A stretch of DNA of 64,000 nt, taken from contig NZ_KE386495.1 of the NCBI RefSeq assembly GCF_000427425.1, positions 512,554 to 576,553 of the forward strand. Direction: 5' to 3'. Position 1 is the first letter of the stretch. Each line of letters starts with the position of its first letter. Below the pieces are notes generated by a model, which was given only the letters and a program-made list of their open reading frames with translations, was not told where the DNA came from and did no database searches. Positions 1,350-36,894 of the stretch are shown piece by piece. A program made the position numbers and the translations under genes. This stretch comes from Caldanaerobius polysaccharolyticus DSM 13641 (GTDB lineage: Bacteria; Bacillota; Thermoanaerobacteria; Thermoanaerobacterales; Caldanaerobiaceae).

Positions 1350-2729
1350 CTATTTCCTGAACAACGAGCCTATTACGGTCTTTGTGCTCTTCAACGTAAT
1401 ACCTAAAAATGACCCATTTTTTTCCAGTATACCGTCAATAGCATCCACTACCGCATCGATGTGCTTTTCCTCCACGATTAGCGGAGGCTCAAGCCTTATT
1501 ACATTGGGGTTATTAAGCGTATAAGCTGTTATTATGTGGTAATCATTTTGAAGCTGCGCCGCCACTAAAGACCCCAGGTACTCATAAGAAAGCTTGCCTA
1601 AAAGCCCTCCTGACAGCTTATTTATAAATCCCTCAGGTTGATTAAACTCTATACCTACCATCAATCCCCTGCCCCTTACATCCTTGATCAGAGAATGCTT
1701 TTCTTTAATAGCATTCAGACGCTCCAACAGGTAATTTCCCATCTTCTGTGCCCGGGTAGGTAAATCCCTGTCTACTATAGACTTTATCGCTGCGATGCCA
1801 GCAGCCATAGCCCATGTATTCCCTCCAAATGTAGATGTGTGCAGCAATGCTCTATCCATGGTCCCATATGCCTTTTTCCATATCTCATCGGTGGTTATAT
1901 AAGCTCCTACGGGCATTACACCACCACCAAGGGATTTGGCCACGCACATTATATCGGGAACCACTTCCTCTCTTTCGCAGGCAAACATGGTACCCGTCCT
2001 GCCAAAACCCGTCTGAACCTCATCGGCTATCATATACGCATCGTACCTGGTACAAAGTTCTCTTACGCCTTTTAAATACCCTTCCGGTGGGACGATTATA
2101 CCTCCCTCACCCTGTATAGGCTCTACTATAAATGCAGCTACATCCCTAGCTTTGAGCTTGTCCTCCAGTACATTCAGATCGCCATAAGGTACGCTCTCGC
2201 AGTTGGGCACAAGAGGCAAAAAGGGTTTCTGGTACTTCTCCCGGCCTGTAACAGATAAAGCCCCCGCTGATTTGCCGTGGAAAGAGCCTTCACAGTATAC
2301 GATTTTGCTCTTGCCGCTGGCTATTTTAGCTAATTTCAATGCCCCTTCCACCGCCTCAGCACCGCTATTGCAAAAAAACGACCTCTTTAAATTACCTGGC
2401 GTAATCTGAGCTAAATTATAAGCCAGTACGCCGGGTAGATTTGCTATAGCTGCCTGAAGGATATTGGGCATGCCCTTGACCTTATCTATAGCCTCAATGA
2501 CCTCAGGGGGATTGTGTCCCAGGTTTAACGCGCCATACCCACCTAAAAAATCGTAATACTCGTTGCCGTCGCTATCCCATACCGACATCCCCTGAGCTTT
2601 TACAAAGTACTTATCAAAATTTAGCAATGACAGCATACTCACAAAGCTGGAATTTATGTATTCACTGTAATTTTCTTTGATAGAGTTCCTACTTAAAGCC
2701 AATGCCTGATCCAGTTCAATGTAATTCAC
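1350..2729 (-). CDS. Class III PLP aminotransferase, putrescine/ornithine type
   Basis: A fold-type I PLP aminotransferase of the ornithine/putrescine (PatA/YgjG) group, about 459 residues, which matches the usual length. Landmarks are FLGGYGALNLGHNPP, FFCNSGAEAVEGALKLAK for phosphate binding, the YCEGSFHGKS motif, IVEPIQGEGG, the ADEVQTGFGRTG motif whose Asp contacts the pyridine nitrogen, and the Schiff-base Lys in CVAKSLGGGVMPVGAY. I use the GTG at 2729 because an AGGGG element sits about 10 bases upstream; a longer in-frame extension to 2804 has no ribosome site and an unlikely sequence. It probably converts putrescine or ornithine with 2-oxoglutarate. An Orn/Lys/Arg decarboxylase at 55.7 kb could supply polyamine substrate. 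The exact substrate cannot be read from sequence. Confidence 0.85.
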   Translation of the reverse strand: MNYIELDQALALSRNSIKENYSEYINSSFVSMLSLLNFDKYFVKAQGMSVWDSDGNEYYDFLGGYGALNLGHNPPEVIEAIDKVKGMPNILQAAIANLPGVLAYNLAQITPGNLKRSFFCNSGAEAVEGALKLAKIASGKSKIVYCEGSFHGKSAGALSVTGREKYQKPFLPLVPNCESVPYGDLNVLEDKLKARDVAAFIVEPIQGEGGIIVPPEGYLKGVRELCTRYDAYMIADEVQTGFGRTGTMFACEREEVVPDIMCVAKSLGGGVMPVGAYITTDEIWKKAYGTMDRALLHTSTFGGNTWAMAAGIAAIKSIVDRDLPTRAQKMGNYLLERLNAIKEKHSLIKDVRGRGLMVGIEFNQPEGFINKLSGGLLGKLSYEYLGSLVAAQLQNDYHIITAYTLNNPNVIRLEPPLIVEEKHIDAVVDAIDGILEKNGSFLGITLKSTKTVIGSLFRK

Positions 2730-2842
2730 GATTATCACGCCCCTATAAAAAAGATTTATTCCATTATACAATTTCAAGCAGCATAATACAACAAGCGCAT
2801 ACACCGCCTTTTTTAAAGCAAAAATAAATAAGGGGTGCTGAT

Positions 2843-3031
2843 ATGGCCATAAGGTTGAGCAAGTTTACCAATATCAAAGGCAAGCAAGTAGAGTTTGCAG
2901 CAGATAACATCACCTACGACAGCAGGCACTTCGCCAGGGAAGCAAAGTCGCAGAAAGCTCAACTGGAAAGTACCCACAGGCACGGTATGAATAGAGGCGT
3001 CAAAGTACCCATCCGCAAAAAAACAACCTGA
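2843..3031 (+). CDS. Small basic protein of unknown function (62 aa)
   Basis: I do not recognise this family. The 62-residue product is basic and hydrophilic, with no membrane segment, signal peptide or cysteines, ending in a Lys/Arg-rich tail (VPIRKKTT). An AAGGGG element sits 8 bases before the ATG, and codon use is sensible. It lies alone on the plus strand between two minus-strand genes, and its stop codon sits in the arm of an 11-bp hairpin that would end transcripts from both sides. That gene-like framing is the main argument that it is real. A nucleic-acid-binding or spore-associated role is conceivable but is not shown. Confidence 0.5.
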   Translation: MAIRLSKFTNIKGKQVEFAADNITYDSRHFAREAKSQKAQLESTHRHGMNRGVKVPIRKKTT

Positions 3032-3054
3032 GGAGTAGTCATAGACTACTCCTC
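3030..3054. terminator. Bidirectional hairpin between convergent genes
   Basis: A perfect 11-bp inverted repeat (GAGGAGTAGTC, 3-nt loop, GACTACTCCTC) spans the stop codons of the plus-strand 62-aa gene and the minus-strand cyclase gene. The U-tract is weak on both sides, so it may act mainly as a 3'-end stabiliser. Confidence 0.6.
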
Positions 3055-3666
3055 TATTAATATAGCCCTGGCAGGCGAACCGTCCCCACCCTTTATCTTT
3101 AAAGGCAAGCATATAAACTTATATTTTCCAGGATTTACATCATTTAAGTAAAGGCCCTCTACCACTACCACTCCATTTCCCAACAACAGCCTGTGAACGC
3201 GACCTCCGCCATGGTACTCTTCAATGGACAGGTAATCGATACCCACTGCCTTTACGCCTTTTTCCACTAGGTACTGAGCCCCTTCCAGCCCTAAAGACGT
3301 AAACTCCTTTTGAAATTGCGGCTGCTTCCACCGCTTTGCGTTATCGGTTTTAAATAGCACCATATCCCCTTTTTGTATGTCCAGATTTTTGAGGTGCTCA
3401 GGCTGAATTTTAAGAGTACCGTATACTTCAAATACCTTTGCTTCTCCCATCAGCAAAGACAGGTCTAGCTCATCTACCGTGTTTCCACTCTGGACAAAGT
3501 GAAAAGGCGGATCTACATGGGTGCCCGTATGGGTACCCATGCTTATAACAGAGACGTTAGCTCCATTTTCTTCTATAGATTTCACCCTTTTAATCTCTGG
3601 CGCAGGATCGCCAGCAAAAACGTGCATTCCCATAAAAATGGGCACAGACACATCGTGTACGATCAT
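3046..3666 (-). CDS. Cyclase-family metal-dependent hydrolase (kynurenine formamidase-like)
   Basis: About 206 residues, the usual size of the cyclase (PF04199) superfamily that includes bacterial kynurenine formamidase. The metal-binding signature HTGTHVDPPFHF is intact, and a second His-containing stretch (YHGGGRVHRLLLGNG) follows near residue 160. The chosen ATG (MIVHDVSVPIFMGM) has GAGGGGG five bases upstream; a longer reading starts inside fprA and lacks a site. It begins 11 bases after the fprA stop, so the two form an operon. The substrate is unknown. No tryptophan-catabolic genes are nearby, so formamidase activity is not implied by context. Confidence 0.8.
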   Translation of the reverse strand: MIVHDVSVPIFMGMHVFAGDPAPEIKRVKSIEENGANVSVISMGTHTGTHVDPPFHFVQSGNTVDELDLSLLMGEAKVFEVYGTLKIQPEHLKNLDIQKGDMVLFKTDNAKRWKQPQFQKEFTSLGLEGAQYLVEKGVKAVGIDYLSIEEYHGGGRVHRLLLGNGVVVVEGLYLNDVNPGKYKFICLPLKIKGGDGSPARAILIEE

Positions 3667-3676
3667 ATTATCCCCC

Positions 3677-11980: not shown

Positions 11981-12016
11981 AAAAAAGCATCTCCTGATTT
12001 TAAGGAGATGCTTTTT
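11981..12016 (-). terminator. Terminator of the rRNA-tRNA operon
   Basis: AAAAGCATCTCCT and its exact complement flank a 7-nt loop, followed on the minus strand by a long T-run, 20 bases after the tRNA-Asn 3' end. Confidence 0.9.
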
Positions 12017-12035
12017 AATACTACCAAATATTTAG

Positions 12036-12107
12036 CTCCTCAGGTAGGGCTCGAACCTACAACCTACCGGTTAACAGCCGGTTGCTCCACCATTGAGCTA
12101 CTGAGGA
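12036..12107 (-). tRNA. tRNA-Asn (GTT)
   Basis: A 72-nt cloverleaf on the minus strand: acceptor stem TCCTCAG/CTGAGGA with discriminator G, anticodon loop CTGTTAA (anticodon GTT), T-loop GTTCGAGCC. CCA is not encoded (CTA follows). It is the last gene of the rRNA operon. Confidence 0.97.
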
Positions 12108-12127
12108 ATATTAACTTTTATTTTCAA

Positions 12128-12147
12128 GACCTTGCCAGGATAAAGGG
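12128..12147 (-). repeat. 23S processing stem, 3' arm
   Basis: GACCTTG (12128-12134) and AGGATAAAGGG (12137-12147) are complementary to CAAGGTC (15123-15129) and CCCTTTATCCT (15107-15117) on the other side of the 23S gene. Together they would form the long precursor stem cut by RNase III-type enzymes. Confidence 0.7.
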
Positions 12148-12439
12148 GGGTGGGTATAAGGTCAAGGCCTCGACCTATTAGTACTTACCAGCTTAAAGCA
12201 TTTCTGCTCTTACACCTTAAGCCTATCTACCTCGTCTTCTTCGAGGGGTCTTACTACCTTTCCGGTATGGGAAATCTTATCTTGAGGCGTGCTTCACGCT
12301 TAGATGCTTTCAGCGTTTATCACTCCCGGACTTGGCTTCCCAGCTGTGCGGTTGGCACCGCAACTGGTGCACCATCGGTCCGTCCTTTCCGGTCCTCTCG
12401 TACTAGGAAAGGCTCCTCTCAAATTTCCTACGCCCGCGA

Positions 12440-12519
<80 letters not shown>

Positions 12520-12524
12520 AACCT

Positions 12525-12634
<110 letters not shown>

Positions 12635-12656
12635 CGCGATGGCTATCCCACTCTAC

Positions 12657-12694
<38 letters not shown>

Positions 12695-12775
12695 TCTTGT
12701 CTGACTCGCAGTTAAGCTACCTTATGCCTTTGCACTCCACGCGCGATTCCTATCCGCGCTGAGGTAACCTTTGGA

Positions 12776-12822
<47 letters not shown>

Positions 12823-13077
12823 ACTGTCAGTGTCCCTTAACCGGCTCTACGGCTTAAGGTTAGAACCTCAATATATACAGAGTGGTATCCCACCGCCGAC
12901 TCCAGTAATGCTGGCGCACTACTCTCTCCGTCTCCCACCTATCCTGTACAGTATATATCGAAGTCCAGTGACAGCCTGCAGTAAAGCTCCACGGGGTCTT
13001 TCTGTCCTGTCGCGGGTAATGAGCATCTTCACTCATACTACAATTTCACCGGGCCCCTTGTTGAGACAGCTCCCAAG

Positions 13078-13172
<95 letters not shown>

Positions 13173-13878
13173 GTTCGGGGCTCTCACCCCTCCCCTTAAC
13201 CTTCCAGCACCGGGCAGGCGTCAGCACCTATACTTCGTCTTCCGACTTCGCAGATACCTGTGTTTTTGGTAAACAGTCGCTTGGGACTCTTCTCTGCGGC
13301 CTTTCGGCACTCCTTCTCCCTAAGTTACGGAGTCTTTTTGCCGAGTTCCTTAACAAGGGTTCTCCCGCTCGTCTGTGGATTCTCTCCTCGCCTACCTGTG
13401 TCGGTTTCCGGTACGGGCACCTCGTCCTATTTAGCGGCTTTTCTCGGCGGCTCCTTCCTCTGCTTCGCCTTGCGGCTCCCCTTCGCTTCAGCGCTTCGCT
13501 CAGGGGTACTTCACTCCCTTCGCTACGCCTCCACTTGGACGCGCTCTACCAACCGCGCGCTCAGATTCCGTCGCCGCGTCCCCGCTTCATTCCCAGACTC
13601 GGTGGTATCGGACTCTTCACCGATTGCCCATCGCCTACGCTTTCGCCTCGGCTTAGGTCCCGACTTCCCCTGGGCGGTTTAGCCTTCCCCAGGATACCTT
13701 AGGCTTCCGACGGTAAGGTTTCTCTCCTTACTCTCGCTACTCATACCGGCATTCTCTCTACTTAACAGTCCACCTCGCCTTTCAGCTCGGCTTCTACCCG
13801 TTAAGTACGCTCCCCTACCAAGTCCTCCTTCCACAGCTTCGGTGGATAGCTTTAGCCCCGGTTCATTTTCGGCGCAGT

Positions 13879-13914
<36 letters not shown>

Positions 13915-14453
13915 TGTATGGCTGCTTCTAAGCCAACATCCTGGTTGTCTTCGTAACACTACCTCCTTTTACACTTAGCTATCTCTTCGGGACCTTAGCT
14001 GGTGGTCTGGGCTCTTTCCCTCTCGACCACGGATCTTAGCACCCGTAGTCTCACTCCCAACCTTACCGTTATGGCATTCGCAGTTTGATAGGGTTCGGTA
14101 GCTTTTACGCCCCTAGCCCATTCAGTGCTCTACCTCCATAACTTACCGGTTGAGGCTAGCCCTAAAGCTATTTCGGGGAGAACCAGCTATCTCCGTGCTC
14201 GCTTGGAATTTCTCCCCTACCCACAGCTCATCCCATGCCTTTTCATTGGCAACGTGGTTCGGGCCTCCACGGGGTCTTACTCCCGCTTCACCCTGGCCAT
14301 GGGTAGCTCGCACGGTTTCGGGTCTACGCATTGTTACTTCCGCCCTCTTAAGACTCGGTTTCCCTTCGGCTCCGGAGCTTCACTCCTTAACCTCGCAACA
14401 ATGCGTCTCTCGCCGGTCCGTTCTACAAAAAGTACGCAGTCACTATCCGGGTC

Positions 14454-14478
14454 CCCAACGCGAGATACTCGCGTTGGG
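14454..14478 (-). other. Extended helix 25 hairpin in 23S rRNA
   Basis: An 11-bp perfect stem (CCCAACGCGAG, 3-nt loop, CTCGCGTTGGG) prolongs the region between CAAGCAG and GACTGCGTAC. There, Bacillus and E. coli have only a short tip of about 20 nt. Helix 25 is a known site of intervening sequences in other bacteria. Confidence 0.7.
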
Positions 14479-14537
14479 TGGTTTAGCTCCTGCTGCTTGT
14501 AAGCATGCGGTTTCAGGTTCTCTTTCACTCCCCTCCC

Positions 14538-14568
<31 letters not shown>

Positions 14569-14827
14569 CTGCTCTATCAGTCACCAGGGAGTATTTAGCC
14601 TTGGGAGGTGGTCCTCCCTGCTTCCCACCGGCCTCTCTTGCCCTGTGGTACTCTGGATCCCGACTCGCCAGGCCTCATTGCGCCTACGAGACTCTCACTC
14701 TCTTCGGTCGGCCTTTCCATGCCCGTTCGGCTTCTTACTACCTGACCTTTACGTCGGTCCTCAACCCCAGACCTTTCGGCCTGGTTTGGGCTCTTCCCCT
14801 TTCGCTCGCCGCTACTCAGAGAATCGA

Positions 14828-14865
14828 TATGACACCCCAGCGAAGTCTCCTTCGCTGGGGGCCCC
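14828..14865 (-). other. 38-nt hairpin insertion in 23S domain I
   Basis: In the rRNA sense, GAGAAGAAAGAAAAA and TCGATTCTCTGAGTAGCGG are normally contiguous in clostridia. Here 38 nt lie between them, containing CCCCAGCGAAG, a GAGA tetraloop, and CTTCGCTGGGG, an 11-bp perfect stem. Confidence 0.75.
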
Positions 14866-15106
14866 TTTTTCTTTCTTCTCCTCGGGGTACTTAGATGTTT
14901 CAGTTCCCCCGGTTCCCCTCATATGCCTATGTGTTCAGCATATGATGCTGAGGTATTGCCTCAGCGGGTTCCCCCATTCGGATACCTCCGGATCAATGCC
15001 TGCTTGCGGCTCCCCGGAGCGTTTCGCCGCTTGCCGCGTCCTTCTTCGGCCCCTGGTGCTTAGGCATCCCCCGCATGCCCTTATTACCTTGACCTCATTA
15101 CCTTCT

Positions 15107-15129
15107 CCCTTTATCCTATTTTCAAGGTC
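15107..15129 (-). repeat. 23S processing stem, 5' arm
   Basis: This arm lies between the 5S and 23S genes and pairs with 12128-12147 downstream of 23S. Its presence shows that 23S is released from the precursor independently of the misplaced 5S. Confidence 0.7.
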
Positions 15130-15137
15130 CTAGTTAT

Positions 15138-15280
15138 GGCAGCGTCCTACTCTCCCGGTCTCCCAGTACCATCGGCGCTGAAGGGCTTAACTAGTACCCC
15201 AAAAAGCTTTCGCTTTTCGGGGACCCCTTTCGGGCTGTGTTCGGTATGGTTACAGGTGTTTCCCCTTCGCTATCGCCACC
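15138..15280 (-). rRNA. 5S ribosomal RNA with expansion segment, located between 16S and 23S
   Basis: A 143-nt 5S gene, against the usual 116-120. The ends pair as helix I (GGTGGCG / CGCTGCC), and the conserved segments ATACCGAACACAG, GTTAAGCCCTTCAGCGCCGATGGTAC and GAGAGTAGGACGC are present. Between GAACACAG and GTTAAG, where a standard 5S has two A residues, 43 nt are inserted (15192-15234). They can form a short CCC-GAAA-GGG hairpin and an 11-bp CCCCGAAAAGC / GCTTTTTGGGG hairpin capped by GAAA. The rest of the molecule looks normal, so it is probably functional. It lies 37 nt after 16S and 43 nt before 23S; no second 5S copy follows 23S. Confidence 0.9.
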
Positions 15281-15296
15281 ATATATTTAATTAAAC

Positions 15297-15307
15297 CAGT
15301 GAGCGGG
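15297..15307 (-). repeat. 16S processing stem, 3' arm
   Basis: CAGTGAGCGGG here is complementary to CCCGCTCACTG at 16839-16849 upstream of 16S, with further pairing of flanking TTAAA/TTTAA. This is the expected 16S precursor stem. Confidence 0.7.
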
Positions 15308-15310
15308 TAT

Positions 15311-16812
<1,502 letters not shown>

Positions 16813-16892: not shown

Positions 16893-16921
16893 ATTCTATC
16901 ACTTTTCTCCTTACCTGTCAA
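16893..16921 (-). promoter_or_regulatory. rRNA promoter P3 (proximal)
   Basis: Consensus -35 TTGACA (16916-16921), 17-base spacer, -10 TAGAAT (16893-16898), about 75 bases before 16S. Confidence 0.85.
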
Positions 16922-16951
16922 GGGCTTTTTCTCTCCCCTGACGGCTTTTTT

Positions 16952-16981
16952 AATATACCACAATTTTTCCCCTCTTGTCAA
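16952..16981 (-). promoter_or_regulatory. rRNA promoter P2 (middle)
   Basis: Consensus -35 TTGACA (16976-16981) and -10 TATATT (16952-16957), spacer 18. It lies 60 bases upstream of P3 and shares the same CCC before the -35. Confidence 0.8.
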
Positions 16982-17010
16982 GGGATTTATCCATTTATCG
17001 TTGCTTTTAT

Positions 17011-17039
17011 AATATATCACGGCTTAGGTTTTGTGTCAA
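17011..17039 (-). promoter_or_regulatory. rRNA promoter P1 (distal)
   Basis: Consensus -35 TTGACA (17034-17039), 17-base spacer, -10 TATATT (17011-17016). The -35 begins just 3 bases beyond the lysS stop, so the three promoters fill the whole lysS-16S gap. Confidence 0.85.
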
Positions 17040-36605: not shown

Positions 36606-36894
36606 AAAAAACCCTCGTCCCTATACACTCGTATAGGGGCGAGGGTTAACTCGCGGTACCACCCTAATCCGCCCATGCCTCGCGACATGAGCCTCATCAG
36701 GTTTTACAACCTTGCCTTTTAACGCAGGCACACGGCATAGCCTACTCCCATTTCAGCCATGCAGCTCCAGAGTGAGTAAGATATACACCGCAACACCGGT
36801 TTCCACCGCCCCCGGCTCTCTATGGTTTTTAGGTGTATACCCGTCTCCTTCACAGCTTTTATGTATTGATATGCATCGAGGTGTTTAATAATTA
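36606..36894 (-). promoter_or_regulatory. T-box riboswitch leader of the ilv-leu operon
   Basis: The leader has the hallmarks of a tRNA-sensing T-box. Stem I contains AGAGAGCCGGGGGC and GGTGGAAACC. The conserved antiterminator box GGGTGGTACCGCGA is at 36651-36664. A terminator hairpin follows (36610-36647: AACCCTCG...CCCTATAC, loop GAGT, complement) with six T. The likely specifier is CTC (36776-36774), placed by the TTACTCACTCTGGAGC context, so uncharged tRNA-Leu should switch the operon on. The neighbouring ATC and CTT triplets leave some doubt. The leader runs from the promoter at 36901-36929 to ilvN. Confidence 0.93.

Follow-up and report, generated by a model that had tools for sequence, protein, structure and literature searches.

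The window analysed here, a 64,000-nt stretch of the Caldanaerobius polysaccharolyticus DSM 13641 genome (contig NZ_KE386495.1), carries on its reverse strand an rRNA operon in the order 16S-5S-23S-tRNA-Asn (12035-16808), and its 5S rRNA gene contains a large insert. In the direction of transcription, the features are:

16893-17039, reverse strand: three sites resembling promoters, ahead of 16S, with 11 of 12 consensus positions matched in each and TG before the second hexamer (consensus scan)
15321-16808, reverse strand: 16S rRNA gene, upstream of 5S with a 37-nt spacer (RF00177)
15134-15283, reverse strand: expanded 5S rRNA gene (RF00001, 58.2 bits, model positions 1-120)
15225-15234, reverse strand: short hairpin of the insert, CCC-GAAA-GGG (fold; relatives have a hairpin at the same position with different loops)
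15194-15224, reverse strand: long hairpin of the insert, 11 bp (CCCCGAAAAGC/GCUUUUUGGGG) capped by GAAA, with a conserved bulged U and, beneath it, two closing pairs (fold and covariation)
15192-15234, reverse strand: whole 43-nt segment, 41 nt longer than the A52-A53 that it replaces in helix III (aligned to both normal and expanded 5S of relatives)
12158-15094, reverse strand: 23S rRNA gene, downstream of 5S with a 39-nt spacer (RF02541)
12035-12107, reverse strand: tRNA-Asn(GTT) after 23S (ARAGORN and Rfam)
11982-12016, reverse strand: terminator-like hairpin with a T run at the operon end (consensus scan)

A T-box leader (36632-36862, reverse strand, 110 bits) also lies in the window.

Compared with the Rfam 5S model, as a preliminary description of this DNA had proposed, the gene scored well above the RF00001 gathering score of 38, with the model aligned end to end (15283 to 15134) and two non-standard pairs marked in all. 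This agrees with the earlier claim that everything outside the insert is ordinary 5S, and the core is undamaged. The same description had placed the gene at 15138-15280 and given its length as 143 nt; the gene is the same one, and a length of 146-150 nt is also possible, depending on where helix I is cut. The Rfam bounds are used here.

The insert occupies the 43 nt between CCGAACACAG and GTTAAG, where normal 5S rRNAs have AA. In alignment with normal 5S genes of relatives from the order, exactly 41 columns are surplus, all between G51 and A53 (E. coli numbering), with base 15192, the last of the 43-nt segment, aligned to A53. The reported size of the insert was thus correct, while its placement in loop C was off by one structural element: alignments with both normal and expanded relatives put it between G51 and G54, rooted at the A52-A53 bulge of helix III, which is universally conserved, and loop C (UAACCAUACCGAAC) has its normal length, with no insertion at positions 34-37. 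The distinction matters because insertions in loop C and in the helix III bulge are separate published types.

Secondary structure prediction gave the segment two GAAA-capped hairpins, the larger with 11 bp including one G-U pair, as had been described. The insert folds at -23.9 kcal/mol compared to a mean of -11.5 for shuffled sequences (z = -4.6; 0 of 200 shuffles as good). When the whole 150 nt was folded without constraint, a 5S-like architecture was recovered in which the two hairpins form side arms inside helix III. We also compared ten insert sequences in a hand-made alignment, one of them from a metagenome-assembled genome (MAG) labelled Aquificota. Stem sequences of the long hairpin diverge strongly among groups with pairing preserved: 96% of cells are paired, compensatory double changes occur in 8 of the 14 long-stem pairs, and all ten sequences retain the bulged U. 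None of 2,000 shuffles matched this pairing, although the shuffles ignore the kinship of the ten sequences. A structured insert with a covarying long stem in an intact core bears out the view that this is a true expansion segment rather than decay.

Inserts of this kind are known. In Thermoanaerobacterium, Thermoanaerobacter, Caldanaerobacter and Caldanaerobius, Stepanov & Fox 2021 (PMC7812874) described a 41-46-nt insertion at positions 52-53 that forms two unequal hairpins, the longer one abounding in homopolymer runs. By its sequence, the 5S gene studied here is a helix III-bulge expansion of this thermoanaerobacterial kind: it shares the site, the size range (net +41 nt), the two unequal hairpins (3 bp and 11(+2) bp), the homoiteron-rich long hairpin with its CCCC, AAAA, UUUUU and GGGG runs, the intact core and the host order, Thermoanaerobacterales. 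It differs in having an 11-bp long stem, GAAA loops on both hairpins, and G-C and U-A as basal pairs, and in lying between 16S and 23S rather than after 23S. It also comes from another family of the order (f1) than the one in which the named relatives were seen (f3), and so appears to be an added family-level member of the type with a sequence of its own. The loop C expansions of Thermacetogenium, Halobacteroides, Halanaerobium and Lachnospiraceae COE1/A4 (positions 34-37; PMC7812874) are likewise helical inserts of bacterial 5S at an exposed position in this arm, but their insertion site is different.

A pattern search of 24 genomes of the order found helix III-bulge inserts in three other genera, represented by G004, by G013, G014, G018 and G021, and by G003, G015 and G017. 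One of these served as a positive control: the match in G015 (84938-85004), by its coordinates the T. thermosaccharolyticum locus, falls inside the published expanded 5S of strain DSM 571 (84899-85053). A match in G019 and one further match in G015 were not 5S and were taken as chance. Among 398 sampled genomes of the phylum Bacillota, 5S matches were confined to C. polysaccharolyticus and G003; a third match (G131) was not 5S-like and was also taken as chance. Together with the published cases, the homologous inserts in relatives uphold the initial impression of a rare kind known from Thermoanaerobacterales. Two relatives (G014 and G018) carry expanded and normal 5S genes together, and the draft genome of a third (G004) has expanded copies only. 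The assembled sequence of a genome from the same genus (G001) contains no 5S, which speaks neither for nor against expansion there.

The gene order is unusual for the group. In every relative from the order with both genes in view, 5S follows 23S, the reverse of the arrangement in C. polysaccharolyticus. The 16S-5S-23S order has been reported for Butyrivibrio proteoclasticus and other Lachnospiraceae (PMC2914790), a distant family with the same arrangement; a literature search for this order within Thermoanaerobacterales returned nothing. Of about five rRNA operons in the genome, one is assembled through and four are gapped between 16S and 23S, where 5S would sit; a search of the genome detected a single 5S. 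Ends of rRNA operons lie at 460 kb on contig C2 and at 616 and 671 kb on C3, each with a 100-N gap, and one further operon is split over the ends of C2 and C3. At the 671-kb site, the first 101 bases of the query (16S promoter side) stand before the gap and a 23S end after it. A CRISPR-like array with repeats of ~30 nt (ATTTCAATTCCATAATGGTCCGATTAAAAC; L003, about 2300-3000) adjoins the gapped rRNA operon on C2. No 5S follows any other assembled 23S end of this genome or the five 23S ends of G001. Because of this, the simplest inference is that 5S precedes 23S throughout the genus, with the other copies hidden in collapsed repeats. As four operons are gapped, normal 5S copies may exist elsewhere in the genome.

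Our preferred reading, to which we assign a probability of roughly 0.83, is that this is a functional 5S gene with a thermoanaerobacterial helix III-bulge expansion segment and that the insert is kept in the mature RNA. Since 5S sits between 16S and 23S, transcripts that start at the promoter-like sites and reach 23S contain it. RNase M5 is the usual 5S maturase of Firmicutes; the genome encodes one (165 bits), which would mature the transcript. The insert would then remain in the mature RNA and form a four-way junction in helix III, with the arm projecting from the top of the central protuberance and leaving uL5 and uL18 binding undisturbed; position 52-53 is among the least obstructed sites on the 50S subunit (PMC7812874). 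A physical precedent for retention is the 5S of Halococcus morrhuae, where cryo-EM resolved a 108-nt insertion as a four-way junction with the core undisturbed (PMC7530397). That insertion is also archaeal, located near loop E (104-105), unrelated in sequence and more than twice as long. Our best guess for the role of the extra arm is near-neutral tolerance with structural maintenance at the level of the lineage.

The long hairpin could instead be an intervening sequence excised by RNase III, leaving the ribosome with a nicked, two-piece 5S, as happens in some 16S and 23S rRNAs. The fold lends this something, as the long stem, with its 11 bp and two further pairs, is almost perfectly double-stranded and of a size close to the lower limit for RNase III; an excised insert, too, would be expected to conserve its stem. 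Against it, excision would leave helix III broken, and a mere cleavage site has no need of the conserved bulged U and the covarying basal pairs. Stepanov & Fox (PMC7812874) held that sequence by itself does not settle the question of excision. Because an oversized 5S of about 160 nt, of the homologous type, was isolated intact from T. thermosaccharolyticum ribosomes (Sutton & Woese 1975, as cited in PMC7812874), we consider retention more likely than excision by analogy, and give the excised, two-piece 5S a low probability. We rate slightly lower the prospect that the expanded copy is non-functional or minor and that the ribosomes draw their 5S from normal genes within the gapped operons. Four gaps across the would-be 5S region leave room for such genes, and the coexistence of expanded and normal copies in relatives (G014 and G018), and in Caldatribacterium as described below, is a counterpoint to our reading. 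Set against this are the location of the expanded gene inside an intact operon, where co-transcription with 16S and 23S is expected, its undamaged core and structurally constrained insert stem, and the relative whose draft holds only expanded copies.

An assembly artefact, in which the collapse of rRNA repeats created either the insert or the 16S-5S-23S order, is very improbable. Only one of the roughly five operons was assembled through, the remaining repeats having been collapsed or left as 100-N gaps, but separate assemblies of relatives carry a homologous insert at the same site, which makes an assembly error across 15192-15234, raised at the outset as a possible objection, very unlikely. 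The 23S 3' ends of this genome and of G001 that lack a following 5S likewise fit a 5S upstream of 23S.

About 85,000 species genomes were also scanned, with incomplete coverage of near relatives of C. polysaccharolyticus. Helix III-bulge expansions turned up within the phylum Atribacterota (Candidatus Caldatribacterium and an uncultured bacterium) and on one contig of a MAG labelled Aquificota:

L037, 7002-7187: expanded 5S, Atribacterota (Caldatribacterium)
L038, 48-206: expanded 5S, Atribacterota
L042, 2280-2438: expanded 5S, Atribacterota
L034, 4660-4820: expanded 5S with the full thermoanaerobacterial layout, at a contig end of the Aquificota-labelled MAG

Each of the three Atribacterota genomes has one normal 5S besides. 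In L037, the 23S that precedes the expanded gene shares 99.6% identity with the 23S next to a congener's normal 5S (L082, from G063); the expanded gene is therefore native rather than contamination. Relative to the thermoanaerobacterial inserts, those of Atribacterota differ at the base but closely resemble Thermoanaerobacterium in the distal hairpin (CCCCAAAAAGTC...GACTTTTTGGGG). About 27 nt of the L037 gene (AAACACCCGGAACCATTCCGAACCCGG) are also directly duplicated, perhaps through an assembly fault or as a second expansion. On L034, an open reading frame resembling a tyrosine recombinase (2481-3668, judged by eye) lies near the expanded 5S.

The insert in the Aquificota-labelled MAG may reflect transfer, parallel gain or misbinning, those in Atribacterota transfer or parallel gain. 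Five more hairpins similar to the long one, CCCCAAAAAGT...ACTTTTTGGGG, occur outside 5S in the Aquificota-labelled genome (G061; L121, L122, L123, L124 and L125, near position 500); in C. polysaccharolyticus, a genome-wide search for the long hairpin as a dispersed repeat found only the copy in 5S. A tentative and rather doubtful idea is that horizontal transfer or repeated insertion brought the long CCCC-AAAAA-GTC hairpin, as a mobile or dispersed module, into the same bulge in unrelated phyla (Thermoanaerobacterales, Atribacterota and the Aquificota-labelled MAG). If so, the helix III bulge would be a recurrent landing site for the growth of bacterial rRNA.

The terms 'Atribact' and 'Caldatri' are absent from the main text of Stepanov & Fox 2021 (PMC7812874), whose abstract names neither Atribacterota nor Aquificota. 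The additions to the known type are a family-level member, an operon arrangement unusual within Thermoanaerobacterales and, in Atribacterota, expansions at the same site. The last of these widen the published bacterial distribution past Clostridia and Alteromonadales, and do so in genomes that hold expanded and normal copies together. Rare as they are, the expanded 5S rRNAs of bacteria serve as natural experiments on ribosomes that gain an arm, and C. polysaccharolyticus, with its 5S wired between 16S and 23S, offers a lineage in which to ask whether every ribosome keeps such an arm and tolerates it.
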